DNA from: a virus
IMG/VR virus record: IMGVR_UViG_3300030098_007154
Span: 1 to 20,884 of that record
Length of the DNA stretch: 20,884 nt
Reading direction: 5' to 3' (one strand)
Shown here: positions 4,442 to 19,308 of the stretch, piece by piece
Position numbering within the stretch: the stretch's first letter is position 1
Layout: each line of letters starts with the position of its first letter
Notes under the pieces: model-generated
What the model was told of the DNA's origin: nothing
Seen by the model: the letters and a program-made list of their open reading frames with translations, nothing else
The model's database searches: none
Position numbers and translations under genes: made by a program

Positions 4442-4557
4442 CAGTGCTTTTTCCTACCGCCTTTGGCCTTTTTCCCGCGCTTTTTGGCTGCGTACCTTCG
4501 GGCTGCTTTCTTACCCTTCTTAGTGTAGGGGAACTTCTTTTTTCCTACTTTTGGCAT
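4441..4557 (-). CDS. 38-aa highly basic peptide (MPKVGKKKFPYT type)
   Basis: The translation begins MPKVGKKKFPYTKKGKKAA and ends KGGRKKH; about half of all residues are Lys or Arg. An AGGA-type ribosome-binding site lies 7-8 nt upstream of the ATG at 4557, and the stop TGA shares its last base with the lysozyme start (TGATG), so it is part of the coupled virion operon. From memory, peptides starting MPKVGKKKFPYT are common small unknowns in marine phage genomes; I could not verify this here. Binding to DNA or RNA, or neutralising packaged DNA, is plausible from charge alone. No fold is recognisable. Confidence 0.8.
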   Translation of the reverse strand: MPKVGKKKFPYTKKGKKAARRYAAKKRGKKAKGGRKKH

Positions 4558-4572
4558 GATTAATCCTGATTA

Positions 4573-4896
4573 CTAGTATAATTTTTTCTTACGTTCTGGG
4601 TAGTTACGTTTTTTCTTTCCACCTATTTCGCGAATCTCGTCCTCGACCTCGTCGGCTATTTTTTCGCTTTTAGTCCTCTTGGACTTGAATTTACGTTCCT
4701 TCTTCTCCATGAACTCTTGAGCTCTCTCGTCGCCCATGCCGTGAGCCTCGTCGCTCCACTTCTTGCGTTTCCTGTCCAGCTTTCCCTTAGCTCCCAGACC
4801 TGTCCCTATTTTATGTGCACGCCTGTAGGCTTCACGGTAACCTTCGTAAGCTCCTACGCCAGCCCCTGAAACTATTGATTTATATTTATCAGCCAT
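4573..4896 (-). CDS. 107-aa charged basic protein, function unknown
   Basis: The 107 residues begin MADKYKSIVSGAGVGAYEGY, a short Gly/Ala-rich helix, and continue as a very charged helical segment dominated by Lys, Arg and Glu, ending RNYPERKKKLY. A GAGG Shine-Dalgarno lies about 8 nt upstream of the start. It lies 3 nt after the 70-aa gene and 15 nt before the 38-aa peptide. The lack of hydrophobic core patterning after residue 35 suggests an extended or coiled-coil virion or nucleic-acid-associated protein. I do not recognise the family. Confidence 0.75.
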   Translation of the reverse strand: MADKYKSIVSGAGVGAYEGYREAYRRAHKIGTGLGAKGKLDRKRKKWSDEAHGMGDERAQEFMEKKERKFKSKRTKSEKIADEVEDEIREIGGKKKRNYPERKKKLY

Positions 4897-4899
4897 GAC

Positions 4900-5112
4900 T
4901 CAATCCTCTTCGTTCAGTTTATCGGTAAAATCCGTATCAGGCTCGAACTCTATGTCGGATTCCATTTCAATGGCCGGGGTATTGCAGACCTTGTTAATTA
5001 TCTCCACGGATGCCTCGGCCATCTCAAGAACATCCAGATCGGATTCATTACCCCACCTGCTGAACAGGGCAAGGAGCTCTCCCTGGAATTTCTGTTTCGG
5101 GCTTGGGTCCAT
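4900..5112 (-). CDS. 70-aa acidic protein, function unknown
   Basis: This small acidic protein has a helical N-terminal half (KFQGELLALFSRWGNESDLD) and a strongly acidic tail (ESDIEFEPDTDFTDKLNEED). Its ATG overlaps the stop of the 298-aa structural gene as TGATG at 5110-5114, which indicates translational coupling and supports it as a real gene. The acidic tail contrasts with the basic 107-aa and 38-aa products immediately downstream, so the products could interact by charge. That is inference only, and no family is recognised. Confidence 0.75.
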   Translation of the reverse strand: MDPSPKQKFQGELLALFSRWGNESDLDVLEMAEASVEIINKVCNTPAIEMESDIEFEPDTDFTDKLNEED

Positions 5113-6008
5113 CAGGATGCGGTGTAGGTTATTTTCCTGGAGACTGTGTAAGGCTGTATCTCATTGGTAAGCGTTAGGAATCCAGTATCGAATTTAATAA
5201 CCCCAGAGGGGTCCAACTTGGCGGTAGCAACCGTTCGGGCCACATTGCTTTTCGTAAAGTCCACCACACCCGATCCATTAAACACATTTAGATTGGTGAT
5301 TGAGCCGGTGCCATTGGAGGTTACCGTACCGCCAGTTACGTTAAGCGTGACGATTGTCGTGGTCCCCGTGGTCAAAAGAGTACCCGCCTGTATGTTTATT
5401 TCGGTGAAAACCACGTCATCCAGGTATACATCGCCACCTAGGATATTCAACTCCGCCGCGGTAGCTGCCAGATAACCTATGAACAGATCGGCGTCCGTGG
5501 CCACTTTCGTGTCATAACTGACGGTTACCTTGTCCAGTTTGGACGTGGTATCGTCCGTATCCGCTCCAAAAGATGCTTTTCCCTTGTACAAGATAAGATC
5601 GTTATTGGTGCCGGATCCCTTCAATCTAACGGGAGGTTTGGATGCATCGGCCGATGTTCCGGTATTGCTGATCGTGATATCCGTGTCATCGGATCCCAGA
5701 TCTATATTGATCAGGGGGGATCCCGCTGGCGTGCCGGGACCGTTATGATATCCAATATTCAGTATCGGAGTCTGTGTTTGAAGCGGTGTGTCTTCGGCTC
5801 CGAGCGATCCCGTATAGCTTTGAGCTATGTTCAGAGATCCCAGATTGATACTGGATTGATCCAGCTCCGAGGCAGTGTTGCAACTTACCGAGTTATTCTC
5901 GAAATATACGTTATCGCCGCCTGTCGGGACTCCACTAGGGCTCCAGTTGTCCGGATGCGTCCATGCATTCGGTGATGCGCCGGTTCCTACCCAAATTTTA
6001 GTTGCCAT
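5112..6008 (-). CDS. Beta-rich repetitive protein, probable virion decoration or fibre component
   Basis: The 298 residues are almost entirely Thr/Ser/Asn/Gly/Val/Ile in short beta strands. The start reads KIWVGTGASPNAWTHPDNWS then GVPTGGDNVYF, a layout I associate with the first turns of beta-solenoid passenger or adhesin-like domains. The later part (LNVTGGTVTSNGTGSITNLN) repeats short strand-turn units of about 8-11 residues. There is no signal peptide. A GAGGAA ribosome-binding site precedes the ATG. As the second gene of the packaging/virion operon, a head decoration or tail-fibre-like role is likely, but the exact part of the particle cannot be assigned. Confidence 0.8.
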   Translation of the reverse strand: MATKIWVGTGASPNAWTHPDNWSPSGVPTGGDNVYFENNSVSCNTASELDQSSINLGSLNIAQSYTGSLGAEDTPLQTQTPILNIGYHNGPGTPAGSPLINIDLGSDDTDITISNTGTSADASKPPVRLKGSGTNNDLILYKGKASFGADTDDTTSKLDKVTVSYDTKVATDADLFIGYLAATAAELNILGGDVYLDDVVFTEINIQAGTLLTTGTTTIVTLNVTGGTVTSNGTGSITNLNVFNGSGVVDFTKSNVARTVATAKLDPSGVIKFDTGFLTLTNEIQPYTVSRKITYTAS

Positions 6009-6014
6009 ATCGTT

Positions 6015-6425
6015 TTATTCCTCGTTTTCGAGCCTCTCGGGCTCCATTATCTGTGCTTTTTGAAGTGAATCGGTGTAGGTTTCGACGATTTCGCCCAATG
6101 CCACGCCCGAATTGCGAATTCTTTTCATTATTTCGTCCGGAGAGGCCGTTTTTGCGCTTTTGTCGTCAACCGTTATGTCATGTCGGGTGGCAGGTTTGCC
6201 AAATCCGTACTCTAACATGAGTCTGGCACTTGTCAAACGGGTAGAGTGATCAGGTACCTCCTCATAGCGCATACCCCTCTGGCCTTCGAGCGAAGCTCCA
6301 CGGACAATTTGCGTTGCGCTCATGCCTTTTCTCAATACTCCGACCGCGCTGGCGAAGTCATCGTCCTCGATATACTTGTGAACGTCCTCTCGTAGACGTT
6401 TCGGAGTCGTTTTGCGAATGGCCAT
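6015..6425 (-). CDS. Possible small terminase subunit (TerS-like), first gene of virion operon
   Basis: This 136-residue protein has a basic N-terminus (MAIRKTTPKRLREDVHKYIED), a helix-turn-helix-like stretch near residues 25-45 (ASAVGVLRKGMSATQIVRGA), and SARLMLEYGFGKPATRHD around 66-83. An arrangement of small helices followed by a LEYGFGKP-type segment is common in phage small terminases and their relatives, which bind the packaging site and load TerL. It opens the leftward operon containing terL, a usual place for terS, but five genes lie between them. No clear Shine-Dalgarno precedes the ATG. Assignment is tentative; it could be another small DNA-binding virion protein. Confidence 0.5.
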   Translation of the reverse strand: MAIRKTTPKRLREDVHKYIEDDDFASAVGVLRKGMSATQIVRGASLEGQRGMRYEEVPDHSTRLTSARLMLEYGFGKPATRHDITVDDKSAKTASPDEIMKRIRNSGVALGEIVETYTDSLQKAQIMEPERLENEE

Positions 6426-6654
6426 AGGTTCTTACGTGCGCGCGAGTGTATATATTTTACGGGAAACGGGTTCCCTTTTTAAAAATTGGTTTTAAATATA
6501 GAGGGGGGAGGGTGTGGGGGGCAAGGGGAAAGGAGAAACAATAATTTGTGATTTGCTAGTTGATTGCTAGGTCGTGTGATAGTTCGGTACCCGCGGGGGA
6601 TGGGGGTGGGTACCACGGTGGTGTGTGATGTGGACACGGTAACCATTGACGCAT
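6426..6654. other. Noncoding region upstream of the virion operon
   Basis: There is no convincing gene in these 229 bases. Contents: a small inverted repeat GGGAA/TTCCC (6461-6465 with 6471-6475) followed on the plus strand by five T; an AT-rich patch (6476-6500); two G-rich clusters; two GGTACC palindromes (near 6587 and 6609); and a palindrome ACCACGGTGGT (6612-6622). This is where a promoter for the leftward virion operon must lie. It could also hold a packaging or replication site, but I see no diagnostic motif for either. Confidence 0.6.
6503..6528 (+). other. G-quadruplex-forming motif
   Basis: Four G runs on the plus strand (6, 3, 6 and 4 long) are separated by loops of 1, 3 and 3 bases, satisfying the usual G3+N1-7 rule. 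A second cluster at about 6594-6610 has three more runs. The motif lies about 80 bp upstream of the first virion gene, on its non-coding strand. Its effect, if any, is unknown. Confidence 0.7.
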
Positions 6655-6694
6655 GGCATAAAGAAAGACGGACACCCGAAGGTGCCCGCCTCTC
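6655..6694 (-). terminator. Intrinsic terminator of the 138-aa gene
   Basis: In the minus transcript GGGCACC pairs with GGTGTCC across a UUCG tetraloop. The stem extends outward to about 12 bp and is followed by a U-rich tail (CTTTCTTTA). The non-Watson-Crick pairs are G-U only in the minus RNA. It begins about 30 nt after the stop at 6726. Confidence 0.88.
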
Positions 6695-6725
6695 GTTAGG
6701 GTCAGGATGATAGTTGATGTTGAGG

Positions 6726-7142
6726 TTAGCAGTAGTAGGGTACGAAACCTTTGGCGTAGTTACCGTCCTCGTCGCTTGCACCTTCGTGAGCTCTCGGCGT
6801 CCGTGCCACATGAACGAACGGTTTGGATGTGCCGTCGTGCCAACCCCGTGGGATGTAGTCTCCCTCGTGGGTGTTGGGAGTGTGGGTTGCAGGAAGTGCG
6901 GCGTATGATGCGGCTCGAAGCCTTCTTTGGCTCGCTTCACAACCAGGCCACCCATCGCCGAGATTCTTACTCAACGCCTTGGCGAATTCTTTAGCCGTTT
7001 TCTCGCACTTGAAGGTGTCGCAACTAGAGAATGTATAGTAGCTGTAATACCAACCGCCTTCTTCGGGACCTCCGAATAGCCGGTATTTTTTATAGATGCT
7101 TACACACCAAGGTGCGTGATGTAGTTTGTAGTATATACCCAT
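6726..7142 (-). CDS. 138-aa aromatic- and Cys-containing hypothetical protein
   Basis: The start (MGIYYKLHHAPWCVSIYKKY) has an AAAGGA ribosome-binding site about 8 nt upstream. Residues 1-75 look like a compact domain (GGPEEGGWYYSYYTF, then KTAKEFAKALSKNLGDGW, an amphipathic helix); the rest is Gly/Pro/His-rich, ending AKGFVPYYC. It is a single-gene unit, with a conserved upstream element about 30 bp before the ATG and a strong terminator about 30 nt after the stop. An overlapping frame entirely within this stretch and its downstream flank lacks such signals. No family is recognised. Confidence 0.7.
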   Translation of the reverse strand: MGIYYKLHHAPWCVSIYKKYRLFGGPEEGGWYYSYYTFSSCDTFKCEKTAKEFAKALSKNLGDGWPGCEASQRRLRAASYAALPATHTPNTHEGDYIPRGWHDGTSKPFVHVARTPRAHEGASDEDGNYAKGFVPYYC

Positions 7143-7172
7143 GGTATTTTTCCTTTGTTAACTATTATGATT

Positions 7173-7210
7173 CGAATCACAAATGACAGGCATAAAAAAG
7201 AGCGAAGCGA
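7173..7210 (-). promoter_or_regulatory. Conserved upstream element, copy 1
   Basis: On the plus strand this reads CGAATCACAAATGACAGGCA and then continues to GAGCGAAGCGA. It matches the copy at 8400-8437 at 31 of 38 positions and shares a TCACAAAGGA-like core with copies near 10100 and 19310. All four lie upstream of the first gene of a minus-strand unit. It is probably a promoter or an operator; which of the two is not decided by sequence. Confidence 0.6.
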
Positions 7211-7599
7211 GAAGGTCATGAGGATGTGCGGGCTTTATGTGTTTGGAGGCGAGACTACGAGGACTTCGTCCGAGACTTCAATGCCTACGGCATTTCTCGC
7301 CGGCTTTTGGTGGGGTGGATGCGATAGCCGGATGATAGTGCTAGCCGCGGAGCGGTGGTGAGGCGCTAGCCGAACCGCGCGGAGCGGCCGCGCAGCGGTG
7401 CGATGGCGCTAGCCAGCGCGCGCTGCGTGAGGCCGCGCAAGCGGCCCCGCCCCAGCGGGCATCGCTCGGCGATGTCGGCTGGAAATGGCGGCTCCGCCCC
7501 AACGGGGCGGTCCCGCTCCAAGGTGCATCGCTCGGCGATGCAGCTTGGTAAAGCGGCTCTGGAAAGTCTGAAAACCCGTAGAGGTTTTCAGGGGACTGG
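7211..7599. repeat. GC-rich, hairpin-packed noncoding region
   Basis: No credible gene. The region contains many short perfect inverted repeats: GGCCGC-GCAA-GCGGCC (7431-7446, GNRA loop), CATCGC-TCG-GCGATG twice (7460-7474 and 7526-7540), GGCGG/CCGCC (near 7488-7499), CCCC/GGGG (near 7500) and CTGAAAACC/GGTTTTCAG (7568-7576 with 7583-7591). Three GCTAGC palindromes lie at 7340, 7365 and 7408, the first directly joined to ATGATAGT. Composition is clearly more GC-rich than the adjacent AT-rich genes. It resembles a cluster of small palindromic elements rather than coding sequence. Confidence 0.75.
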
Positions 7600-7639
7600 A
7601 AAAAAAAAGAGACAGCCACCAGTAACGGTGACTGCCTCT
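7600..7639 (-). terminator. Intrinsic terminator of the 222-aa gene
   Basis: In the minus transcript AGAGGCAGTCACC pairs over 13 bp with GGTGGCTGTCTCT around a 6-nt loop, followed by nine U. Two pairs are G-U in this orientation and would be A-C mismatches in the opposite one, which fixes the direction. Confidence 0.95.
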
Positions 7640-7663
7640 TAAGGTTAAGGGTTATGGGTTGGG

Positions 7664-8332
7664 TTACAGAGAGACTTCGGATGTCTCTTTCTCTAGCTCG
7701 TCCGAAGACGATGCCGGCGAAGCCGCATCGGCGAGGATGTGCGGACGGACTTCGTAATCATGAACCGTCATGGGGTTCCCCTCGCTGTCGAAGGTCTCGA
7801 CATCGATGTTAATTACGGTGACTTCGACGGGCTTACCCACCAAGGACGCGAATGCCTTCTTCTCCTCAAGGATACTGAGGTCGCAGGCTTCCTCCTCGGG
7901 TAACCCTGTCGTGTGCATCAGGGTGTCGAGGATGGCTTGGAACTCATCTCCAGCAGGCTCCTGATTAGGACGCTTGCGTGCGGCTGGCAGGATGGGGTCT
8001 CCGTTACCGTCAAGCGGTCTGTCGTTAAACGCACTCTGCTGTGCGGTGAACACGGTATCCTCACCGTTGGTTCCTTGGATCAGGTTGCCTGCCTCATCGG
8101 CGAGCTTGAGCCTGTAGGAAACGGTTAGGGTGTCACGGACGGTGGACTTAACACCGTTATCGTCGTAACCGAAGACATGCTTGGTTACTACATTGGCGAC
8201 AACTGCGTAGATTACCTGACCCACTTGGGCGAAGACGCTTGGGTGGGTAGGGCGGCTACGCCGTTTCATTGCGAAGTGGACGAGTCCCCAAGAGGCGAGG
8301 AGCTCCATGATCATTAGGTTTACTATATGCAT
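7664..8332 (-). CDS. 222-aa hypothetical protein
   Basis: The frame is open for 222 codons and is followed 24 nt later by a strong terminator. The body looks like a soluble alpha/beta protein (strands VEVTVINIDVETFDSEG near residues 168-184) with an acidic Ser-rich tail (SSSDELEKETSEVSL). The start is uncertain. The first ATG (MHIVNLMIMELLASWGL) has no Shine-Dalgarno and adds a hydrophobic stretch that could be a membrane anchor or an artefact; Met22 (MKRRSRPTHP) would give a 201-aa soluble protein. It is a single-gene unit with the conserved upstream element 70-105 bp before the first ATG. Composition is more GC-rich than the genes to its right. Family not recognised. Confidence 0.7.
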   Translation of the reverse strand: MHIVNLMIMELLASWGLVHFAMKRRSRPTHPSVFAQVGQVIYAVVANVVTKHVFGYDDNGVKSTVRDTLTVSYRLKLADEAGNLIQGTNGEDTVFTAQQSAFNDRPLDGNGDPILPAARKRPNQEPAGDEFQAILDTLMHTTGLPEEEACDLSILEEKKAFASLVGKPVEVTVINIDVETFDSEGNPMTVHDYEVRPHILADAASPASSSDELEKETSEVSL

Positions 8333-8399
8333 TATGTTTACAGGTGGCTAGCACCGTTTAGGTTAGTATACTACGCGGGCTAAGGAAGATTCCATCGCC

Positions 8400-8437
8400 C
8401 GAATCACAAAGGACAGACATAGGTGGGAGCGAAGCGA
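8400..8437 (-). promoter_or_regulatory. Conserved upstream element, copy 2
   Basis: This is the same element as at 7173-7210 (31 of 38 identical), including CGAATCACAAA at one end and GAGCGAAGCGA at the other. Closer to the gene, at 8366-8371, the minus strand also carries AGTATACTAACC, similar to blocks downstream of the copies near 10100 and 19310. Confidence 0.6.
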
Positions 8438-8809
8438 CGAAGCGTCGTGGGGTGATGGGCATGAGGGATATAGCGGCTCAAGGGTCAAGACCCTTGTCTG
8501 GAGTCCAGAGGGCGAAGCGCCTCTGGGGGCGTTGCGGAGGTAGGGGTATGCTCAAGCCCCTTTGGGGCGCGGGAGCTAGGTTTGTATGATAGTCAGCTAG
8601 CCGTTGTCGGTGTAGTCAGCTAGCCGTTGCAGGCTCAGGCTCAGGCTCCGCTGTAGGCTCAGGCTCAGGCTCAGGCTCCGCTGTAGGCTTAGGCTCCGCT
8701 GTACCAGCGGCCTTTGGCCAAATACCCTTGGTTAGTGGGCGAAGGAGCCCCCTCCCCTAGTAAGTATTTTTAGACTAGATACATGATTGTGTCGGTTTTT
8801 GTCAACGGC
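8438..8809. other. Noncoding region with hairpins and direct repeats
   Basis: This is the upstream noncoding DNA between the 222-aa unit and the terminator at 8810. Inverted repeats: CAAGGGTC-AA-GACCCTTG (8479-8496), CCAGAGG/CCTCTGG (8505-8511 with 8520-8526) and GCCCC-TTT-GGGGC (8556-8568). A 17-bp direct repeat, TAGTCAGCTAGCCGTTG, occurs at 8590-8606 and 8613-8629, each copy containing GCTAGC. A short tandem repeat follows at 8632-8704. No gene with a standard start is present. Confidence 0.7.
8632..8704. repeat. GGCTCA / GGCTCCGCTGTA tandem repeat
   Basis: Runs of the hexamer GGCTCA (two, then three copies, then a GGCTTA variant) are each closed by GGCTCCGCTGTA. All units are multiples of three. 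The minus strand therefore reads Glu-Pro repeats separated by Thr-Ala (TAEPEPEPEP), but this frame has no ATG, GTG or TTG start between its stops. Confidence 0.85.
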
Positions 8810-8852
8810 AAAAAAAGGGAACAGGCACTGAATGATAGTACCTGCTCCCTTT
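8810..8852 (-). terminator. Intrinsic terminator of the HTH/endonuclease unit
   Basis: A 16-bp stem in the minus RNA (AAAGGGAGCAGGTACT with AGTGCCTGTTCCCTTT) encloses loop AUCAUUC and is followed by a U tract. Wobbles are G-U only on the minus transcript. Stem top and loop are nearly identical to the terminator at 10154-10196. Confidence 0.95.
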
Positions 8853-8871
8853 AAAGTGGCGTGGTTGGTGT

Positions 8872-9690
8872 CTATTTGAATATGTCCCAGTTATTTTTGA
8901 ATTGTTCGTATTTATTGGATGATAGTGGATTGTGTGGGCAGAGTCTTATCGTCTTACTGGTTACTTCTTTTATAGGGATTAAGTACCATACGTCTTCTTG
9001 AAGTACATATGCTGCGAATATGTCTATTTTGGATAGTTTGGCAGCATCTCCTGTATGTTTTCCTGTTCCATCTTTACTTAGGAACTGTTTTGCGAAGTCA
9101 GCATTGACTGAATAGCTGTCGCCTTTGTACAGAGTGCGGGATGTGCCTCTTATTTGTACGTAATAACCTTTATCCTGTCTGTTGTTCAATACCCATGAGT
9201 CATGTGCTAAGCATTCAGCGGGTGTAGGGTGTGGGTAATGTCCTAGTAGCAATGTCTTTGCAGAGAATAGTTTTTCATATGCTTGCCCAGCAGGTGTCGT
9301 CATGAGGGCTGAACGCCTCGCATCCATACCTTGCATATGCTCTTCGTAAGTTTTCTCTTTTGCGTTTCTACGAACCGTATGGATGAATGTTTTCAGTTTA
9401 GGGTGCCGTTGAGAGCGTTTCCATATGGTACGAACATTTATACCTAGTTGATCGGCTGTGGCTTGTAGATGTCCGTTGTTTTCAGCTATTGCTGTTTTCA
9501 ATTCAGACATCGTGACTTTATATAGCCGAGAGCCGTCCAGTTTCTTGACTTGGTTTTGCAAACCTCTGTCTTTTATGCGTCTGTATATTGTCTGTACGTT
9601 GCATTTCAATAGACGAGCTGCTGCTGCTTTGCTTCCATTGCATTCTTTTACTGCGGATAGAATGCTCCTTGTTGATATTTTATCTGCCAT
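8872..9690 (-). CDS. Double-HTH protein with PD-(D/E)xK homing-endonuclease-like domain
   Basis: The 272-residue protein carries two consecutive Fis-like helix-turn-helix units: residues 9-40 (SAVKECNGSKAAAARLLKC, then QTIYRRIK) and 63-95 (NNGHLQATADQLGINVRTIW). After a linker, the C-terminal half matches the layout of intron-associated PD-(D/E)xK endonucleases of the I-Ssp6803I type: YYVQIRGTS (177-185), KIDIFAAYVL (221-230), YLIPI (236-240) and the final NNWDIF. Such enzymes cut specific DNA sites and spread their own gene. No intron or split gene is visible next to it, so it would be free-standing. The usual Q-x-K lysine reads as Arg181 (VQIRG), so activity is uncertain. It is second in a two-gene unit with the 121-aa gene, six bases apart, and ends 20 nt before a strong terminator. 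Confidence 0.75.
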   Translation of the reverse strand: MADKISTRSILSAVKECNGSKAAAARLLKCNVQTIYRRIKDRGLQNQVKKLDGSRLYKVTMSELKTAIAENNGHLQATADQLGINVRTIWKRSQRHPKLKTFIHTVRRNAKEKTYEEHMQGMDARRSALMTTPAGQAYEKLFSAKTLLLGHYPHPTPAECLAHDSWVLNNRQDKGYYVQIRGTSRTLYKGDSYSVNADFAKQFLSKDGTGKHTGDAAKLSKIDIFAAYVLQEDVWYLIPIKEVTSKTIRLCPHNPLSSNKYEQFKNNWDIFK

Positions 9691-9696
9691 GATTAT

Positions 9697-10062
9697 TTAT
9701 AGTTGTTTGATTATATTTGTTAGATTTACTACACGATGCATGAGCTGGCATATGCATTTGCCTTCGTTTTCTTCTTCGTCGAAGTGACCGCAGGAGAGTA
9801 CGGTCCAAACAGGCTCGTAAGGATCTACTTTGTCGGATGCAACCAGATGCCATGTGATCGATGAGAGGTCAGGTGTTTCATCGAGATCTTGGGAGTACGC
9901 CTTCACTATTTCTTTCAGCTGATCTTCTGAAGGATTATCGCCTATTTGAAGTGCTGAGTGTTTGAATAAGAAGTGGTTAACTCCGTTGCCGAAGTCGATT
10001 AGATCGGGATCGGTTACTTTGCTGTTATAGGATATTCTACTGAGAAGGTTTGGGTTATTCAT
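9697..10062 (-). CDS. 121-aa acidic hypothetical protein with C-terminal Cys residues
   Basis: This soluble acidic protein includes DPDLIDFGNGVNHFLFKH and, near the C-terminus, SCGHFDEEENEGKCICQLMH. The latter has Cys/His residues (SCGH, CIC, MH) that could bind a metal ion, though spacing fits no motif I know. There is no Shine-Dalgarno; the leader is AT-rich. It is the first gene of the unit that includes the HTH/endonuclease gene, with the conserved upstream element about 40 bp before the ATG and a TATACT hexamer nearer to it. Family not recognised. Confidence 0.75.
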   Translation of the reverse strand: MNNPNLLSRISYNSKVTDPDLIDFGNGVNHFLFKHSALQIGDNPSEDQLKEIVKAYSQDLDETPDLSSITWHLVASDKVDPYEPVWTVLSCGHFDEEENEGKCICQLMHRVVNLTNIIKQL

Positions 10063-10098
10063 TATTGGTCTTTAGGTTTAGTATAATTAAATTAAATA

Positions 10099-10135
10099 TA
10101 TCAAATCTGATAGTCATAAAAATAGTTCTCCGGTT
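10099..10135 (-). promoter_or_regulatory. Conserved upstream element, copy 3
   Basis: The plus strand reads TCAAATCTGATAGTCATAAA and then AATAGTTCTCCGG. It aligns with 19311-19343 (TCACAAAGGATAGCCATAGA, then AATAACTTTCCG) at about 70 percent, and more weakly with the copies at 7173 and 8400. Closer to the gene, the minus strand has TATACT within AATTATACTAAACC. Confidence 0.55.
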
Positions 10136-10153
10136 CCGTTGTTGTTTTCGTTT

Positions 10154-10196
10154 AAAAAAAAAGGGACAGACACTGAATGATAGTGCCTGCCCCTTT
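10154..10196 (-). terminator. Intrinsic terminator downstream of the 70-aa gene
   Basis: In the minus RNA AAAGGGGCAGGCACT pairs with AGUGUCUGUCCCUUU over 15 bp (two G-U) around loop AUCAUUC, followed by a run of U. In the plus RNA the same two positions are A-C mismatches, so only minus transcription gives a perfect stem. Loop and upper stem match the terminator at 8810. Confidence 0.95.
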
Positions 10197-10394
10197 GGTT
10201 AGGTGCATTGTATTTACGTCAGTGACGTCTCCATTACGCGTAGTCCCCACTTCGTAGTTGTAAGTTCCTTACCAGATACTAGGAACATGAAGCTCTTATG
10301 CTACGCTGGCTGTATGGTTAATCTACATAGCCGTCTGATTTGATCGGGTCTATTCCCGCTTTGTCCGCGGACGGCATAGAACACGGACGATAGG
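10197..10394 (-). other. Structured trailer after the 70-aa gene, possible tiny ORFs
   Basis: This 198-nt stretch lies between the 70-aa stop and its terminator. Hairpins: GCCGTC (10331-10336) with GACGGC (10370-10375), enclosing CGGG-TCTATT-CCCG; GTCCGCGGAC palindrome near 10363; GTTCC/GGAAC near 10264 and 10281; ACGTC-AGT-GACGT (10216-10228). Two tiny minus frames exist, 10318-10377 (19 aa, MPSADKAGIDPIKSDGYVD) and 10214-10288 (24 aa, MFLVSGKELTTTKWGL...), neither with a clear ribosome-binding site. It could be an untranslated structured RNA or carry microproteins. Confidence 0.4.
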
Positions 10395-10607
10395 TCAATC
10401 AATGTGGTAATTCATTTTTCCTCCTATGGTTGAAGGTTGATCGTTTTGAAGTTCTTTAGGCCAAGGCACCGCATGTGACGGTTCTCCATCGCGACTACAT
10501 CTGACGAAGGTGTTTCCTTGGACAACGTAGATAGCTCCCGTTGGTTTGTACTTGTAGTATTGGCCTGTCTCTAAACATGTCGGGCTTTTTATCTTTTTGA
10601 ATTTCAT
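10395..10607 (-). CDS. 70-aa small soluble hypothetical protein
   Basis: The product (MKFKKIKSPTCLETGQYYKY... AIYVVQGNTFVRCSRDG) looks like a small beta-barrel-like fold: Lys-rich N-terminus, a YYKY strand, a turn at KPTG, a hydrophobic strand AIYVVQ, then a polar tail. No Shine-Dalgarno is visible and the leader is A/T-rich. It lies 14 nt below the end of the structured noncoding region, so it may be expressed by read-through from the upstream unit. No recognised family; reality is supported by codon pattern and size only. Confidence 0.6.
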   Translation of the reverse strand: MKFKKIKSPTCLETGQYYKYKPTGAIYVVQGNTFVRCSRDGEPSHAVPWPKELQNDQPSTIGGKMNYHID

Positions 10608-10620
10608 GTCTATTCTGTTT

Positions 10621-10906
10621 GAAAAAGGGATGATCAGTGCACCATGCCAAGTGCATCATCGTTGGGTCTGTACAACGATGAGGGACCTAATGAGTCGCTA
10701 GCATCATATTCACCTGCATGTCAGGTCTACTAGGCACTAGTATATCGCAGACACATATCGCTGGATATACTCGGTCTGATCAAAGGATGAGGGAGAGCCC
10801 ACTAGGGAATCGTCCACTAGTCTAGCTTGCCAGTATAGGATCGTACGCTCCGCATGGTATAGCATGACTTTTCGCTGATTCCGTGAAGCGGGCTCTGCCC
10901 TCAAAG
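10621..10906 (-). ncRNA. Structured noncoding region downstream of the tmRNA-like domain
   Basis: These 286 nt contain no convincing gene and many perfect stems in the minus RNA. A 12-bp helix with one bulge pairs 10890-10902 with 10789-10800 and encloses about 90 nt. Hairpins: AGTATATC/GATATACT (10739-10746 with 10764-10771), ACCTG-5 nt-CAGGT (10712-10726), CATCGTTG/CAACGATG (10657-10664 with 10673-10680), and a final GCAC/GTGC stem near 10638-10654 followed by U5 at 10622-10626, which resembles a terminator. Stem density and position argue for a transcribed RNA continuing from the tmRNA-like domain, either as one precursor or as a separate RNA. No Rfam family is recognised. Confidence 0.6.
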
Positions 10907-10970
10907 TGGTGGAGTAGGGCGGAGTTGAACCGCCGTCCTATCTAATGATAGTCGAATCCGTTACTACCCC
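10907..10970 (-). ncRNA. Minimal tmRNA tRNA-like domain lacking the mRNA-like region
   Basis: These 64 nt fold completely. Acceptor GGGGTAG (10970-10964) pairs with CTACTCC (10917-10911) over 7 bp, with G3-U70 as the only wobble. The D-loop analogue carries GGATTCGA, the conserved 5' signature of tmRNA. CTATC/GATAG forms a 5-bp stem closed by ATTA where tmRNA's long H2 helix would begin. Then come GAC, a perfect T-arm GGCGG-TTCAACT-CCGCC, discriminator A and an encoded CCA. In E. coli ssrA the ends read GGGGCTG...GGATTCGAC and GGTTCAACTCC...CTCCACCA, so the relationship is clear. G3-U70 with A73 is the alanyl-tRNA synthetase identity set. There is no anticodon arm, so it is not an ordinary tRNA. 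Its 5' seven bases overlap the ribbon-helix-helix stop codon. Confidence 0.85.
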
Positions 10971-11179
10971 TTTTTGAGAAGTTCAATCTTTTTGGTCAGA
11001 TCGTCTCTTTTTGCTTCTAGTATTTTTATGGTGCTATGGTTTTTCAAGGATACTTTAAGTCCTTCTAGAAGTAGGTCGGTTTTGGATATACCTGTGTTTT
11101 CGGTAATGAATGCTAGTTGGTCTTCTAGTTCTATTGGTGCTCGAAAGGATAGCGTGGTTTTGTGAGTTTTCTTTTTCAT
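10964..11179 (-). CDS. Ribbon-helix-helix DNA-binding protein
   Basis: The 71-residue product MKKKTHKTTLSFRAPIELED... has the classic ribbon-helix-helix layout: a basic beta strand (KTTLSFRAP), helix A (IELEDQLAFITENTG), a turn and helix B (SKTDLLLEGLKVSLK), followed by a C-terminal coiled-coil-like tail (KILEAKRDDLTKKIELLKKG). Such proteins bind operators as dimers. I chose the ATG at 11179, two nt after the preceding stop (TAA TC ATG), over an upstream in-frame ATG at 11218 that would overlap the previous gene by 37 nt. Its stop TAG forms part of the acceptor stem of the tmRNA-like RNA. It is the likeliest candidate for a phage transcription regulator here. Confidence 0.85.
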   Translation of the reverse strand: MKKKTHKTTLSFRAPIELEDQLAFITENTGISKTDLLLEGLKVSLKNHSTIKILEAKRDDLTKKIELLKKG

Positions 11180-11181
11180 GA

Positions 11182-11628
11182 TTAAGAAGCTTTGGTTAGA
11201 TTTTGTATTTGATGCCATCTTTCTTTGATTGCGTGTAGTAGATAAAGAACGATGCGTAGATTCGGTATGTCTTTGTGGTCAAACCATCCATGTGTTTCGA
11301 CGACATCGGTTTCGTATTGGGAGTATAGCCGGAGATCATTCCAGTATACGGATAAGCTGTTCCTCGGTGCCCAGCCTGCTCGTGGTCTGAATATGACATG
11401 ATCTTTCGGATAGCTGTGTATTGGCTCCGATGACTTCATGGATTTAATTTCCGGCCATTGGGCGTATGCACTCTTGCGGTCATCAATTGATGATTTGATC
11501 AGGTTTAGGTTTTTATTGTTTACGAACACGACGTTTAGATTGTTTCCTTGGAGTTCGCATACATGTTGCTCTATAGGTCCGTATTTTGATCGTGCTTGTC
11601 GGAAGTTATATATTTTGGATGAGTTCAT
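11182..11628 (-). CDS. 148-aa hypothetical protein
   Basis: This soluble, basic to neutral protein is rich in Asn, Ser and Trp (VIFRPRAGWAPRNSLSVYWN in the middle, IVLYLLHAIKERWHQIQNL near the C-terminus, an amphipathic helix). It starts one nt after the stop of the 30-aa membrane peptide (TAA C ATG) and ends two nt before the ribbon-helix-helix start, so it belongs to the rII operon. No Shine-Dalgarno is visible. No family is recognised. Confidence 0.8.
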   Translation of the reverse strand: MNSSKIYNFRQARSKYGPIEQHVCELQGNNLNVVFVNNKNLNLIKSSIDDRKSAYAQWPEIKSMKSSEPIHSYPKDHVIFRPRAGWAPRNSLSVYWNDLRLYSQYETDVVETHGWFDHKDIPNLRIVLYLLHAIKERWHQIQNLTKAS

Positions 11629-11629
11629 G

Positions 11630-11722
11630 TTATTTGAATATTAGTTTGAATATTTCGATTAATGCTATGACGCATGCACCATATATGATGGCGACTACGA
11701 ACAGGTCTTTGTAATCATTCAT
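11630..11722 (-). CDS. 30-aa single-pass membrane peptide next to rIIA
   Basis: The product is MNDYKDLFVVAIIYGACVIA followed by LIEIFKLIFK: a short polar N-terminus and one hydrophobic helix of about 18 residues ending in Lys. Its ATG overlaps the rIIA stop as ATGA (11719-11722), and its own stop is one nt from the next ATG, so it fits exactly between two genes with no spare sequence. That packing, with the membrane-helix composition, makes a real gene likely despite the size. A link to rIIA at the membrane is inference. Confidence 0.75.
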   Translation of the reverse strand: MNDYKDLFVVAIIYGACVIALIEIFKLIFK

Positions 11723-13932
11723 TTGATTAGGTTGTATAGTATTTTGTTAAGGTCTGTTTTCTCTTCTTCGTGATCCTTGGTGTGATGCCAGTTGAAGTAG
11801 TATGGCAAGGATATGTATCTGAGTATGGGGTGTTTGCCTATGATTTGATTTACCAGCTTTTTTATGTTGGTGTTCTTTTTTCTGGTGAATCTTTCAGGTC
11901 GTATTTTTAGTGTATTCAAGCAGTGGTTGAGACTTTGCATTCTTTTGGTTTCGAGAAGTCTGTCTTGTTTTGCTTGGAGTTGAGCAAGTGTGCGGACAGG
12001 TCCGTATTTGCTTTGTTTCATAAAAGGTAGAAGGTTCATCAGTTCTCCTATCTCTATTCCGCTTGAATGTTCTTGTGCTTCGAAGCTTATGTCTTGCTTC
12101 ATTAGCATGATGTTCCAAGCTAGATCCGGCTTTCGTTTTAGTTCTGCTCTCAGCAAGTCTTTTATGGTTGGGAATACTCTTGGTATTGAGCTGAATGCTG
12201 CTGCATGCTTTGGTCGATATGCTACGATTGTTGGTTTTTTATTGTATCTTTCTTCGAATAGACAAACTACTTGGTGCATGAAGGCAGTTGGGTAGATGTC
12301 ATTTCCATATTTTTTGTCATCTCCAGCGTACCTGAACCCGTTTATTTGAACAGCCATTATGTCGCTGTTATCTGTTTCGAATTGTTTTTGGTCTTCGATG
12401 ATAGTGAAGCAGTCTCTGTTTACATTTGTTTGTGTGGCTGTCTTTGATGTATCCATGAGGAAGAGCTCTCCGTGTGCTTTGGATGGTCCGTTGGAGAATG
12501 TACCTCCTTTTGATCTGTTGTAGTTGATCGGTAGAGGTTCTATTTCGCTTATCTTTCGTATACTGTCCAAGTATGATGACACGGTGCTGCTTTTCATGAC
12601 CCCTATTGGTTCGTTTATCATGATTAGCTGTGAGCTTGGGTTGTCATGGAGAAAGGCTTTTATTCTTCTTCCTCTGGTTGTCTTGGCTTCCATGTTGTCG
12701 TTGTAGAATAGTACGGTTGTTTGGTCTGGTCGCAGGTATTGCCTTTGTGACTTCTTTACTTGAGTTTTACCAGTTCTCAATGTTCTGACCATGTATTCGT
12801 CGCAGTTCATTGATCTTCTTGATCCGTCAGCTAGGATGTGGCTGAAGTTTAGACTTTGTTGTACGAACTCTCCCGTGTCTTCGTGTTTTATGTTTTTCAG
12901 CACTCGTTTTAATCCGTAGGGGAGTTCCTTTTCCGCTGTGTTATACAGTTTGGTCGCTTCATACAGGTTTGTTGCTGATATGATGTCTTTGCATATCGTT
13001 TCTTGTACGGATTTGGATACTTTTGGAAGCATGCTGTTTAGATATGCTTTTGTTTGGTCGTTGTATTCCAAGCTTTCTCTGGATGCAGCGATGGATAACG
13101 AACCAAGTGGCATTTTTATGAATAGAGAGGAGCAACTTGCAATCTCGGGGCAGTCTTGTAGTTGGTATATATCTAATTCATAGCAGACATGACCCATTAT
13201 TACTTTGGCGTATCCATGGTCTATTTCTTTTGTGTATTCACTTGCTTGAGCGATGTACCAGTCGTCACCTTCATAGAACTTGTTTATGTTTTTGGGTTCT
13301 TCTATGTTTTCGTTTACCAATCGGTATGGTGATCCGGCTAGGTGTATGGATGTTATGAACGACATGGTTCTTTTGTGAAAGGTTCCTATGTCATCGTTTT
13401 TAATAGGGATCGATATTCTAACACCATTTGGTTGGTCGTCTTTTCGTACGTTTGCTAGATGAATGATAGCGTCTCCTTTGTCATTCAGGGCGGCAATGTA
13501 TGTGTGTTTGTCGCCAGATATCCATGTCTCGATCGTGAATTGGTCTGTGTATGCAAATGCTGATTTGCTTCCGATTCCTAGGCAGCCTGTTACATCGTTG
13601 GAGTCACGCTTGGTTGATTCTCCGTATTGGGTGAAGATGCTTTTTATTTCTTTATCGGTGAGACCGGGGCCGTAGTCTCTTACTGACCATACTGGATCCA
13701 GTGTGCATGGTATTTGGATAAGTATTTCCTTTGCTTTGTTGCCTGCTTCGATGTTGGCATCGAATGCGTTGCAGCAGTATTCGCGGATAGGTGCTAGTAT
13801 TTTGTCCGAATAGATCTGATCTCGGAGCATACCCATGATATGGCGTTGATTCTTTTCGCTGATCTTGAATTGAATCTCTTCTGATTCGTATGTGTTCTTG
13901 AAGCGGTTGTGTTTTGGATTAGCTATTTTCAT
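11719..13932 (-). CDS. rIIA: rIIA-like protein with GHKL ATPase domain
   Basis: At 737 residues it is close to T4 rIIA (about 725). The N-terminal domain has the GHKL (gyrase/Hsp90/histidine kinase/MutL) ATP-binding motifs: N-box REYCCNAFDAN (E51, N55, D58), DYGPGL (D86, G88, G90) and a glycine-rich lid GCLGIGSKSAFAYTD (116-130). In T4, rIIA and rIIB are membrane-associated proteins affecting lysis and excluding or resisting other phages; the mechanism is not settled. Gene order rIIB then rIIA in transcription is the reverse of T4, where rIIA comes first. The leader has no Shine-Dalgarno (AAATACAATG). A 6-bp hairpin lies about 40 nt upstream. Confidence in the family is high; biological role is by analogy. 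Confidence 0.9.
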   Translation of the reverse strand: MKIANPKHNRFKNTYESEEIQFKISEKNQRHIMGMLRDQIYSDKILAPIREYCCNAFDANIEAGNKAKEILIQIPCTLDPVWSVRDYGPGLTDKEIKSIFTQYGESTKRDSNDVTGCLGIGSKSAFAYTDQFTIETWISGDKHTYIAALNDKGDAIIHLANVRKDDQPNGVRISIPIKNDDIGTFHKRTMSFITSIHLAGSPYRLVNENIEEPKNINKFYEGDDWYIAQASEYTKEIDHGYAKVIMGHVCYELDIYQLQDCPEIASCSSLFIKMPLGSLSIAASRESLEYNDQTKAYLNSMLPKVSKSVQETICKDIISATNLYEATKLYNTAEKELPYGLKRVLKNIKHEDTGEFVQQSLNFSHILADGSRRSMNCDEYMVRTLRTGKTQVKKSQRQYLRPDQTTVLFYNDNMEAKTTRGRRIKAFLHDNPSSQLIMINEPIGVMKSSTVSSYLDSIRKISEIEPLPINYNRSKGGTFSNGPSKAHGELFLMDTSKTATQTNVNRDCFTIIEDQKQFETDNSDIMAVQINGFRYAGDDKKYGNDIYPTAFMHQVVCLFEERYNKKPTIVAYRPKHAAAFSSIPRVFPTIKDLLRAELKRKPDLAWNIMLMKQDISFEAQEHSSGIEIGELMNLLPFMKQSKYGPVRTLAQLQAKQDRLLETKRMQSLNHCLNTLKIRPERFTRKKNTNIKKLVNQIIGKHPILRYISLPYYFNWHHTKDHEEEKTDLNKILYNLIK

Positions 13933-13970
13933 TGTATTTGTATGTATATTGTTTGGGTTATGAAATTGGT

Positions 13971-13990
13971 GCCCCGTTTAAGGTCGGGGC
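13971..13990 (-). other. Intercistronic hairpin between rIIB and rIIA
   Basis: GCCCCG (13971-13976) and CGGGGC (13985-13990) form a perfect 6-bp stem with an 8-nt loop in the 85-nt gap between the two rII genes. There is no U tract after it on the minus transcript, so it is not a typical terminator; an RNA-stability or processing role is possible. Confidence 0.65.
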
Positions 13991-14017
13991 CACACCTGCG
14001 TCGACGTCTGTTTTATA

Positions 14018-15037
14018 CTAACCCAAAGTATTTTTGGAGGCTTTTGGATCGTCGATGTCATCCCAGTCGATGTCCCATCCTCGTTTAACTAGTTGGTTAA
14101 CGAGATCGAATATGGATATATCGTGATCATTGGCTAGTTTTCTGAGTGGGATAGGCATTTGCAATGCTTCGTGCCAGTCTTCTAGTTTTGCTATTGCATC
14201 GTCTATCTCTGGTTGAGATACAGGATGTAGCGTGCTACCGTCTTCGTTTTCATCGTCTTCGATGGAGTATACGGGACGATCCAGAAGTTTTCTGTTGTCC
14301 GTAATTTCGTTGATGACTTCGTATTTGGTGACACGGAGTTTTTGGTATTGGCAGTCTGAGGGTACGCTAACTGCATTCTTTGGATCGAATTCAACGAGCA
14401 TGAGTCGTCCATCGGATCCGGCCCAGCTGTCAGCATAGTCGAAGCTTCCGATATGAAGTCCTGCGGAGCATCCGTTGTTGGGGTCATCATCAACTGATAG
14501 GCGAGCTACTTCGATGATTTCTCCAATTCCGTTATAGATTTGGTGGTTATCGTTTACTTTGCCTTGTAGTACGATGGTGTCTTTGTTTCCGTGAAGGCTG
14601 TAGTAGTCTTCACTTACACCTTTGTAACCCAGGCAGGTACCGGTTTCGGATATAGGCATTCCTTTGTGGTCCAAGAACTCGTATAGGTTGTCGAGGCATC
14701 GTTTGCTTGGGTTGGCTATGAGACGATCGACGAACTTGAGCCAAGGTAAAGCTGGGATACCTTCGTTCAGTATCGTGGTAAGCTTTTTGGCTATCGATGG
14801 AGCGATGTCATGCCCTGAGAATTTCAACACACCGTTTTCGTATGTTACTTTTCCTTCGGTGATGGCTCCGATGAATCCTTCGGAGTTCATTGCTTCTTTC
14901 AAGGTATTGATGTCACCTTCGATGATTGCTTTCTTTACCGCTTGGTAGTTGAGAGCGTGTTTGGGTACGGTGGTGGTTACACCGTCTATCGTTATGCTGA
15001 TTGCGTCTGTTGTTATGATGTATGCTACTTTATTCAT
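14018..15037 (-). CDS. rIIB: rIIB-like protein
   Basis: The 339-residue length is close to T4 rIIB (312). The N-terminal domain includes DAISITIDGVTTTVPKHA and NYQAVKKAI, as in rIIB proteins. The central block has CLGYKGVSEDYYSLH (135-149), GCSAGLHIGSFDYADSW (189-205) and LMLVEFDPKNAVSVPSD, which I recognise as the conserved rIIB core. The C-terminus (PLRKLANDHDISIFDLVNQL, then VKRGWDIDW) looks like a small helical module. It starts six nt after the HhH gene. It is the presumed partner of rIIA encoded immediately downstream. Confidence 0.9.
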   Translation of the reverse strand: MNKVAYIITTDAISITIDGVTTTVPKHALNYQAVKKAIIEGDINTLKEAMNSEGFIGAITEGKVTYENGVLKFSGHDIAPSIAKKLTTILNEGIPALPWLKFVDRLIANPSKRCLDNLYEFLDHKGMPISETGTCLGYKGVSEDYYSLHGNKDTIVLQGKVNDNHQIYNGIGEIIEVARLSVDDDPNNGCSAGLHIGSFDYADSWAGSDGRLMLVEFDPKNAVSVPSDCQYQKLRVTKYEVINEITDNRKLLDRPVYSIEDDENEDGSTLHPVSQPEIDDAIAKLEDWHEALQMPIPLRKLANDHDISIFDLVNQLVKRGWDIDWDDIDDPKASKNTLG

Positions 15038-15043
15038 GTCTTT

Positions 15044-15688
15044 TTATTCTAGTATATGTGACCAGTATTTTGAGTTAGATTTGTTTTGTACATAGCAGTC
15101 CCAGTATATGAATCTCGTGAGCACTGGTGGTATGTCTGCGTTGTTGCTCAAGTATAACCAGATGTCCTCCATTTCTAGGTAGTCATCCAGTTTCGGTGCT
15201 TTTTCCTTATGTTGCCCAAATGCATCAAGTATGTGTCTGTCGATGCAGATGATGTTAGCGTTTAGTGGATCTATGAGTTCGGCGGCAAAGCTTATCTTTG
15301 CGTTTCCAATACCCCAGATGTTTTCTCTATGATAGTCTCGCCAGTCAGCCCAGTTGCTGTCTTCTGGTAGATTATCGTATGCTTTTGAATCGCATATGCT
15401 TTTGATCAGTTTGGCTTTTCTGTTGTGCATACCTCCAACTTTGAGTTTGGTGGCTGCTTCAGACAGGGATATTTTGCCTTTGTGGTCTTTCAATGATTTG
15501 TATTGAGCGACATTGTTCTCCCATCCTGTGTGAATGGATGAAGCGGCGAATAACCATTTTTGCCAACGCTGTCTTTGTGTTGTCGGGGTATGGTGATTCC
15601 AATATATCCTGTACCATCTTCTTGTATCGTAGGGTATGTTTTTGAAGAAGTGTTCCAGTTCATGGAGTTTATCTTTTGGGATATCCAC
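15044..15688 (-). CDS. HhH-GPD superfamily DNA glycosylase-like protein
   Basis: The 214-residue helical protein contains a helix-hairpin-helix segment WGIGNAKISFAAEL (125-138) followed by NIICIDRHILDAFG (145-158), the spacing and Asp (D150) found in base-excision glycosylases of the endonuclease III/MutY/AlkA superfamily. The Lys of bifunctional enzymes would follow directly after the G-x-G-x motif; here that position is Ala130 and a Lys comes one residue later. A monofunctional enzyme like AlkA, or a non-catalytic variant, is therefore as likely as a lyase. No iron-sulfur Cys cluster is seen. The start is a GTG at 15688, overlapping the GP88-like gene by 20 nt; no later Met is plausible before residue 87. 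Confidence 0.65.
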   Translation of the reverse strand: MDIPKDKLHELEHFFKNIPYDTRRWYRIYWNHHTPTTQRQRWQKWLFAASSIHTGWENNVAQYKSLKDHKGKISLSEAATKLKVGGMHNRKAKLIKSICDSKAYDNLPEDSNWADWRDYHRENIWGIGNAKISFAAELIDPLNANIICIDRHILDAFGQHKEKAPKLDDYLEMEDIWLYLSNNADIPPVLTRFIYWDCYVQNKSNSKYWSHILE

Positions 15689-16421
15689 GGAAGCCTTTCT
15701 TCTTCAGTTGTTGCAGAGCTTTTGATGCGGTTGAACCTTTTGGTTGGACTCCGTGCAATGGTATTGCGAAGGGTCCTCCGGGTTCGGATGCTAACTCATC
15801 TTGTTTATCGATGGGTAGTCCTAGGTTTTTAGCTTCCTCGAAGCTGTATACGACTTTTGCATACTTGAGTTTGTGCTCATGTATCAGGTTGTCGTATCTG
15901 CCTCCCAAGCTGGCATTTTGCTCTAGGTTCGAAGGGGCTATATGTTGGTATTTTACGATGAAGGGTATTGCTTTCGTATACCAATATACTCGAACTGGAT
16001 TCAGTGCGGATGTTAGTGCAAGGCATGCTAGGTACATGTTCTCATGCCAGAAGTCTCCGCTTGTTCCGAATATTCTAATTTTCGGTAAGCTTTGGTGGTC
16101 TTCTATGTATGATAGTATGTGAGGTAGTACGCTGTTTAGCATTCTCCTGAACAGTTTTTCAGGTTCGTGTATATGATATAGCAGTGCTTTGTAGTTACTC
16201 CACAGGCTTTTTCTGTGTGATGGGTAGATCGATTCCATTGTCGCTGCATAGCATCGAAATGATTGATTTTCGCCATCGGTTATTTTTCCTGTTGCTGGGC
16301 TGGCGTGTGCATAACACTCGGTTGCCCAAGGTTTGCATGTCCAACCTGCTGGTATGCTAAGATGAATCGTGTTCTTTCTTAGCTTCGCGTTTCCTATTCG
16401 CCAATTTAGTTTATGATTCAT
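15669..16421 (-). CDS. GP88-like (mycobacteriophage gene 88 family) protein
   Basis: This 250-residue protein has an N-terminal Cys-containing block HLSIPAGWTCKPWATECYAH (C29, C36) with C57 in FRCYAATMESIY. A Trp/Phe-rich central block follows (IRIFGTSGDFWHENMYLACL, then NPVRVYWYTKAIPF), the pattern I associate with the GP88 phage family. The family's biochemical role is unknown to me; the Cys residues could hold a metal. The C-terminus is basic (KALQQLKKKGFRGYPKR). It overlaps the small Zn-binding gene upstream by 11 nt and the HhH gene downstream by 20 nt, so the three are probably co-translated. Confidence 0.65.
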   Translation of the reverse strand: MNHKLNWRIGNAKLRKNTIHLSIPAGWTCKPWATECYAHASPATGKITDGENQSFRCYAATMESIYPSHRKSLWSNYKALLYHIHEPEKLFRRMLNSVLPHILSYIEDHQSLPKIRIFGTSGDFWHENMYLACLALTSALNPVRVYWYTKAIPFIVKYQHIAPSNLEQNASLGGRYDNLIHEHKLKYAKVVYSFEEAKNLGLPIDKQDELASEPGGPFAIPLHGVQPKGSTASKALQQLKKKGFRGYPKR

Positions 16422-16647
16422 CTTTCTTCTTTTTCTTCTTTTTTGGCATGCATAATCCGCAAGTTCTTTGAATTATTTCTTCCCAAGATTCGTGCGGTTT
16501 CTTTCTTGCCGTGCATATCAGTTTTCTGAAGTGGCACACATTGCAGCTTGGTGTGCTGTGTATGTGTCCGTGTTTGCATTTTTTCATCAGGATGCCCGGA
16601 TCTTTTTTCCGTTTCATCATGAGGGCGATTAACTCTGCGTATCCCAT
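16411..16647 (-). CDS. Small CxHGH...CxxC zinc-binding protein
   Basis: The 78-residue product contains CKHGHIHSTPSCNVCHFRK then LIC: Cys and His spaced like small phage zinc-binding and HNH-related proteins (CxHGH then CxxC). It also has CGLC and a Lys-rich tail (KKKKKKKDES). An AAGGAG Shine-Dalgarno precedes two out-of-frame ATGs, at 16651 and 16647. I chose 16647 because only this frame has the Cys/His motif and protein-like sequence. The strong ribosome-binding site is unusual within this AT-rich unit. No HNH catalytic His-Asn set is complete, so nuclease activity is doubtful. Confidence 0.7.
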   Translation of the reverse strand: MGYAELIALMMKRKKDPGILMKKCKHGHIHSTPSCNVCHFRKLICTARKKPHESWEEIIQRTCGLCMPKKKKKKKDES

Positions 16648-16670
16648 CCATGTCAGCTCCTTCGTATATA

Positions 16671-17471
16671 TTAGAAAGGTACTAGTTCGTCGTCAGCATG
16701 GCTTACGTAGTTATTCAGCAGATGCATGATCTTTTGAGTGCGGTAGGGTATGTCTGCTCGACTCTTTTTGAACGATTCCGTGAAGCAGTTATACAAACTG
16801 TATAGGTTTCTTGCTTCGAAGTCCTCGTGGATTGGGTTATGCCATTCTTTGATTACCGTTGGTATGTAGGATGCGGGGATCACTTCATCTTGTATTGATT
16901 GAATCATGATGTCGTGTGCATCCAAGTCATCGATGGATTGGCTTTTGTATTGCCCGATTCTTTCGATGTGTTTTCCGGCTTCGGATTGCAGCTTGATCAA
17001 GGCTTCTCCGATAAGGAAGGGGAGCTCGCTTACGATTTTGTTTGTGTGCTTGCGTTGCAGAGGTATTTCGCAGGGCACATCCATGTTGGTGCATGCTACG
17101 GTTCTGGTTTGCAGATACAGGATGAGGGATCTCATTTTGATGTGGCTATTGTGTCCTGCCACTTGCATGTGGATTCCGGGCATTAATTCATTGGATACTT
17201 CGAATACGAAATGGCAGTTACCTTGCTCGAATGAACTTGCGAAGGTGGATGCTACGATGTCCCAGCCCATGTCCTCTATTTTATTAGCGGTCATGTTTAT
17301 GAATGACCTGTTGTCAACGGGTAGATGGGTTCGGGTACCTGCTGGCGTTGGTATGTTGCAGGCTGAGGTGTAAGACTCTCTTACTGCTTTTTTGGTAACC
17401 ATTAGACTGCTGTCTATGTTTATGACTGGGTTCTTTTCTAGTTCGAGTAATTTTGGATTTAGTATAATCAT
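16671..17471 (-). CDS. DUF932-like phage/plasmid protein
   Basis: The 266-residue protein shows features I associate with the DUF932 (phage/plasmid-like) family: a mid-protein TVACTNMDVPCEIPLQRKHT (the CTN motif followed by a basic patch) and a C-terminal NLYSLYNCFTESFK, the Asn-x-x-x-Leu-Tyr-Asn-x-x-Thr-Glu signature. Family members occur in phages and mobile elements; function is not established. It starts with an ATGA overlap with the 88-aa gene (17468-17471) and is followed 23 nt later by the small Zn-binding gene. Confidence 0.7.
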   Translation of the reverse strand: MIILNPKLLELEKNPVINIDSSLMVTKKAVRESYTSACNIPTPAGTRTHLPVDNRSFINMTANKIEDMGWDIVASTFASSFEQGNCHFVFEVSNELMPGIHMQVAGHNSHIKMRSLILYLQTRTVACTNMDVPCEIPLQRKHTNKIVSELPFLIGEALIKLQSEAGKHIERIGQYKSQSIDDLDAHDIMIQSIQDEVIPASYIPTVIKEWHNPIHEDFEARNLYSLYNCFTESFKKSRADIPYRTQKIMHLLNNYVSHADDELVPF

Positions 17472-18580: not shown

Positions 18581-18614
18581 TGTATTTATATTTAGTATTT
18601 ATGTTTTGGGTGAA

Positions 18615-19268: not shown

Positions 19269-19308
19269 TTTTGTTTTTGGGTTAAGTGGGTTAATACTTA
19301 AATTCTCT

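Follow-up and report, generated by a model that had tools for sequence, protein, structure and literature searches.

We find that a virus record from IMG/VR (IMGVR_UViG_3300030098_007154), a single metagenomic contig of 20,884 bases that was analysed over its whole length and that we call the window, carries on its minus strand the tRNA-like domain (TLD) of a transfer-messenger RNA (tmRNA) without an mRNA-like region. This mini-tmRNA is one of a large family in which the pair that specifies alanine does not vary. The bases at 10970-10907 are those given in an earlier account made from the letters alone (hereafter the sequence-only reading), and they divide into the following parts:

10907..10970, minus strand: whole mini-tmRNA, a tmRNA TLD lacking the mRNA-like region, 64 nt (RF00023 match, fold)
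10964..10970, minus strand: 5' strand of the acceptor stem, GGGGTAG, in which G3 pairs with U70 and which includes the TAG stop of the upstream open reading frame (ORF) (sequence, fold)
10952..10963, minus strand: D-loop-like segment TAACGGATTCGA with the conserved GGATTCGA signature (sequence, RF00023 match)
10938..10951, minus strand: short H2 hairpin CTATC-ATTA-GATAG in place of the tag and pseudoknot region (fold, compensatory changes in 17 distinct short-class sequences)
10918..10934, minus strand: T-arm GGCGG-TTCAACT-CCGCC (RF00023 match, fold)
10907..10917, minus strand: 3' strand of the acceptor stem, CTACTCC, with U70 at 10913, then A73 and an encoded CCA (sequence, fold)

The identity of the element as a tmRNA TLD without an mRNA-like region, which the sequence-only reading had proposed, is confirmed. 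Against the Rfam tmRNA model RF00023 it scores 62.1 bits with cmscan (E 2.5e-22; gathering score 47), in an alignment that spans model positions 1-374 and deletes 314 of them. The features that mark the TLD in RF00023 are all present (G3-U70 acceptor, GGA/TTTCGAC D-loop, T-arm, A73); the resume codon, tag frame and pseudoknots of the mRNA-like region are absent from the alignment, where a 4-nt loop stands instead. The predicted minimum free energy (MFE) fold, at -22.4 kcal/mol, consists of a 7-bp acceptor stem, a 5-bp H2 hairpin with an AUUA loop and a 5-bp T-arm, with GAC between the H2 hairpin and the T-arm. It agrees with the earlier description both of an intact alanine identity pair, G3-U70, as the only acceptor wobble and of a plain hairpin in the place of H2, pseudoknots and tag. 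The folding z-score is -3.0, with 1 of 200 shuffles folding equally well. ARAGORN, when run on the window, did not detect the element at 10970-10907. A permuted or two-piece tmRNA (RF04321) was considered for the window and rejected: the halves are contiguous and in standard order, the H2 hairpin is closed, and there is no RF04321 match.

Mini-tmRNAs in virus contigs, bacterial genomes and phage isolates

IMG/VR was scanned with the pattern TTCGAC N4-34 GGAC NNN GGTTCRANTCC, which fixes only the D-loop and T-arm signatures and leaves the acceptor free; this main scan gave at least 120 matches. Together with an earlier scan it yields at least 121 contigs that pair at 6 or more of the 7 acceptor positions and along the entire T-stem, and a narrower scan added 22 short-hairpin contigs, so that at least 143 IMG/VR contigs besides the window carry a tmRNA TLD with no mRNA-like region. 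The same pattern, applied to genome_contigs (84,980 bacterial and archaeal species), gave at least 118 matches. The fold is present in 5 of the 118 matches listed, the remainder being mostly unrelated. At least two of these five mini-tmRNAs adjoin phage genes for head morphogenesis or terminase; a full-length tmRNA is present as well in four of the five bacterial genomes.

Among the relatives compared with RF00023, the gathering score is passed by all of the virus loci L003-L013, by L269 and by the mini-tmRNAs of the five bacterial genomes. The element also occurs in four phage isolates, namely Streptomyces phages LuckySocke (57.1 bits) and BRock (64.5 bits), Pontimonas phage phiPsal1 (54.6 bits) and Stenotrophomonas phage Jojan60 (61.8 bits), none of which has it annotated as tmRNA. 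The genomic setting of the copies varies, with some lying in tRNA arrays and others between structural genes. SmpB (PF01668) was found in none of 21 carrier records, with all 10 bacterial controls positive, and a second RF00023 match above the cut-off is missing from 23 of 24 carrier records, in a search that did not extend to permuted genes. The remaining record, G009 (123,582 bases), carries a mini-tmRNA along with a 392-nt tmRNA-like gene of 94 bits. This gene lies at G009 77588-77979 (L303 589-980), and ARAGORN predicts for it the atypical tag SPEYRIRLLTNTKW.

Several other phages were examined as candidate carriers and set aside. The BLAST matches Validus, Milly and xhp1 have a piece resembling the tmRNA 3' end beside an integrase and no Rfam tmRNA match, and GMA2 has a full-length tmRNA. 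In Stenotrophomonas phage IME-SM1, Acinetobacter phage BUCT628, Alcaligenes phage QDWS595 and Ruegeria phage RpAliso the tmRNA is permuted (RF04321; loci L310, L308, L309 and L306) and is unannotated in the regions shown. Pistol ribozymes were seen at L007 5916-6012, L240 1621-1716 and L312 1143-1199, about 0.3-2.4 kb from mini- or full-length tmRNAs.

Covariation, alanine identity and two structural classes

The sequence-only reading had expected a genuine family to show compensatory changes in acceptor, T-arm and 5-bp stem, and such changes are found, the first two in a set of 77 sequences dereplicated (<88% similarity) from among the matches listed and the last in the short subclass. Within the 77, two-sided changes number 17, 44 and 27 at acceptor pairs 4, 5 and 6, 56, 49 and 26 at T-stem pairs 1, 2 and 3, and 36-46 at each of six H2 pairs. 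In H2 (491 versus a maximum of 307), acceptor pairs 4-7 (308 versus 227) and the T-stem (385 versus 282), there are more paired cells than in any of 1000 partner shuffles; note that the pairing filter raises the paired fraction, not the diversity of pair types, and that failing matches mostly lack acceptor and H2 together. Pair counts were anchored, since MFE folding rearranges several long-class members, and the MAFFT alignment A1 was excluded from them because it misplaces the 5' acceptor in some rows. For the short-hairpin subclass (17 distinct sequences) the paired cells are 82/85 in H2, 85/85 in the T-stem and 119/119 in the acceptor, which none of 5000 shuffles reaches. Because the 77 sequences show such extensive compensatory change, a chance origin of the window TLD is further excluded.

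G3-U70 is an established alanine identity element. All 77 sequences have G-U at pair 3:70 and A at position 73, although the acceptor lay outside the search pattern. Since this wobble stays fixed while acceptor pairs 4-6 vary, with five or six pair types each, its invariance points to selection for charging by alanyl-tRNA synthetase (AlaRS). CCA is encoded in just 26 of the 77.

The family falls into two classes. Most members belong to a long class whose H2 has about 6-8 bp in its outer part, then an asymmetric internal loop rich in A and a small hairpin at the tip, often CCG-CAYG-CGG; most relatives are about 76-86 nt long. The window and 30 other contigs make up a class with the short hairpin only, the shortest being the window element and L269, at 64 nt.

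Proposed competition with host tmRNA and alternative explanations

Why should phages carry a TLD that cannot template a tag? Our preferred explanation, to which we give a probability of about 0.6, is that the mini-tmRNA, charged with alanine and reliant on host SmpB, competes with host tmRNA and inhibits or short-circuits trans-translation. It builds on what we observe here: the element is predicted to fold as a TLD, it belongs to a family whose stems covary and whose alanine identity is invariant, and SmpB is missing from the carrier records searched. From these we infer expression, processing, charging, SmpB binding and a benefit to the phage. Processing of a phage transcript would release the mini-tmRNA, host AlaRS would recognise G3-U70/A73 and load it with alanine, and host SmpB and EF-Tu would bind it; it would then reach ribosomes stalled on broken mRNA and displace host tmRNA. 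Offering no resume codon, tag or stop codon, it would leave host trans-translation competitively inhibited or short-circuited during infection.

The sequence-only reading had proposed three roles: a decoy that blocks host trans-translation, a minimal rescue RNA and an alanine carrier. The decoy, as a putative role of the window element, is the best supported of these because a similar TLD-only molecule is reported to inhibit E. coli tmRNA; overall, the interpretation given in that reading is partly supported. According to PMC4131195 (citing Mao et al. 2009), and again to PMC11915505, a molecule similar to the TLD of mycobacteriophage DS6A, chargeable or not, strongly inhibits E. coli tmRNA, perhaps by titrating SmpB. 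Two observations sit uneasily with competition by a charged RNA. The inhibitor described in those papers is active whether chargeable or not, and pure SmpB titration would not require an invariant G3-U70. In addition, G009 has a full-length tmRNA-like gene as well as its mini-tmRNA, which is odd for a simple anti-tmRNA strategy. The inhibition that these papers ascribe to an unchargeable version would favour titration under overexpression; the invariant G3-U70 would favour a natural role on the ribosome. More tentatively, mini-tmRNAs may be widespread phage counter-rescue RNAs, charged substrates that go beyond SmpB titration by accepting the nascent peptide and so uncouple rescue from tagging during infection.

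A related scenario, which we regard as unlikely, is rescue without a tag: the charged mini-tmRNA and SmpB would take the nascent peptide on stalled ribosomes, and the ribosome would then be freed by Pth, ArfA/RF2, ArfB or drop-off. This might aid translation while leaving phage proteins untagged, as has been proposed for mitochondrial tmRNAs that lack a coding sequence (CDS). The invariant G3-U70/A73 argues that charging, and hence peptide transfer, matters beyond SmpB titration, and the presence of both mini and full-length forms in G009 fits such a role. We know of no releasing factor, however, that acts after peptidyl transfer to a TLD. CDS-less mitochondrial tmRNAs are retained alongside SmpB (PMC11915505), which again speaks for tag-less rescue, but the sole bacterial effect found for a TLD-only RNA in PMC4131195 and PMC11915505 is inhibition of tmRNA. 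It is very unlikely that the element is instead a charged carrier that gives alanine to a phage or host enzyme off the ribosome. The alanine identity is indeed invariant, but the element retains the D-loop/H2 layout of tmRNA, which forms the SmpB-binding side and which a simple alanine donor would not need, and no aminoacyl-transferase turned up in those window proteins that were searched. The window proteins are almost without homologues in the other fetched carrier loci, so that no enzyme common to the carriers is apparent.

For many phages ssrA serves as an integration site, and they carry the 3' end of that gene; in Validus, Milly and xhp1 the piece that resembles the tmRNA 3' end adjoins an integrase of the tyrosine or site-specific kind. 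Might the mini-tmRNA, then, be what is left of a phage tmRNA in decay, or a copy of host ssrA that acts as an attachment site? We consider this highly improbable. Both TLD halves are present and no integrase match was found among the window proteins searched, so that an ssrA attachment site (attP) was rejected for the window; moreover, compensatory change maintains the stems and G3-U70 is invariant, and the covariation already largely refutes a relic. That an assembly error deleted the mRNA-like region, as the sequence-only reading had cautioned, is an explanation to which a single metagenomic contig lends itself but which is scarcely credible: the same architecture recurs, with different hairpins, in more than 140 contigs, and because four sequenced phage isolates carry the element too, the explanation is refuted at the family level.

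The window phage and the surroundings of the element

PHROG matches among the window proteins include terminase large subunit, endolysin, rIIA and rIIB. The nearest upstream feature is

10964..11218, minus strand: upstream ORF, 84 aa, Arc/CopG-like repressor (PHROG 876, E 4e-6)

The TAG stop of this ORF forms nt 5-7 of the TLD, within 10964-10970 on the minus strand. Given its position inside the TLD, RNase P-type 5' maturation would strip that mRNA of its stop codon and make it a substrate for trans-translation. Such overlap is no family-wide trait, as an upstream stop codon overlaps the TLD in 10 of 90 carriers versus 6% at random positions. Directly downstream of the TLD, a stretch of about 299 nt without a listed ORF (10608-10906, minus strand) folds unusually well, at -102 kcal/mol (z -4.2; 0 of 200 shuffles); it matches no Rfam family and is possibly another structured RNA. 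Further on, past a 70-aa ORF, lies a strong terminator-like hairpin of 15 pairs followed by a T run (10160-10196, minus strand), which likely marks the transcript end.

Around 9 kb the G+C content of the window drops from about 0.52 (1-9000) to about 0.43 (9000-20884). The initial 2 kb seem poorly coding, and these features may reflect a mosaic genome or a chimeric contig. A search of IMG/VR with RIIA peptide patterns returned zero loci, and no close relatives of the window phage were found; the best tblastn identities are 24-29% with RIIA and, among TerL matches of nearly full length, 23-26%. Across all fetched carrier loci, homologues of window proteins amount to two weak matches, and because of this near absence we take the window phage not to be a close relative of the other carriers.

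Relation to known tmRNAs

The sequence-only reading knew of no described phage RNA of this kind, a claim contradicted by Table 2 of PMC4131195, which lists 'Mycobacterium phage DS6A (TLD only)'. The DS6A tmRNA (tmID 11587; PMC4131195, PMC11915505) resembles the window element in being phage-encoded, with a complete TLD and no CDS; the likeness is one of description, and the window copy is the 64-nt short-hairpin form. A 2025 database holds 9 unique 'standard, no CDS' tmRNA sequences in all (PMC11915505). The CDS-less tmRNAs of Mallomonadaceae plastids (about 65 bp) and of jakobid and oomycete mitochondria (RF02544) have likewise kept the TLD and lost the tag frame, but they are the organelle's own, whereas the window element is an extra viral copy, and most of the mitochondrial genes are permuted. 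Full-length phage tmRNAs (mycobacteriophages Bxz1/Wildcat, Streptomyces phages, crAss-like phages) and permuted ones (RF04321) share the TLD and are phage-encoded, but they retain an mRNA-like region with a tag, the examples here being 392-417 nt long or permuted.

The kind of RNA is thus already known; what appears to be new is how many carriers there are, that G3-U70 is invariant and that two structural classes exist. With LuckySocke, BRock, phiPsal1 and Jojan60, named isolates open to testing the question of why phages interfere with trans-translation. PMC4131195 and PMC11915505 know a TLD-only phage tmRNA from DS6A alone, and its kind now extends to more than 140 contigs, a breadth that, along with the unvarying alanine identity, would mark it as a strategy selected in phages to counter or circumvent ribosome rescue, and no longer as a curiosity.
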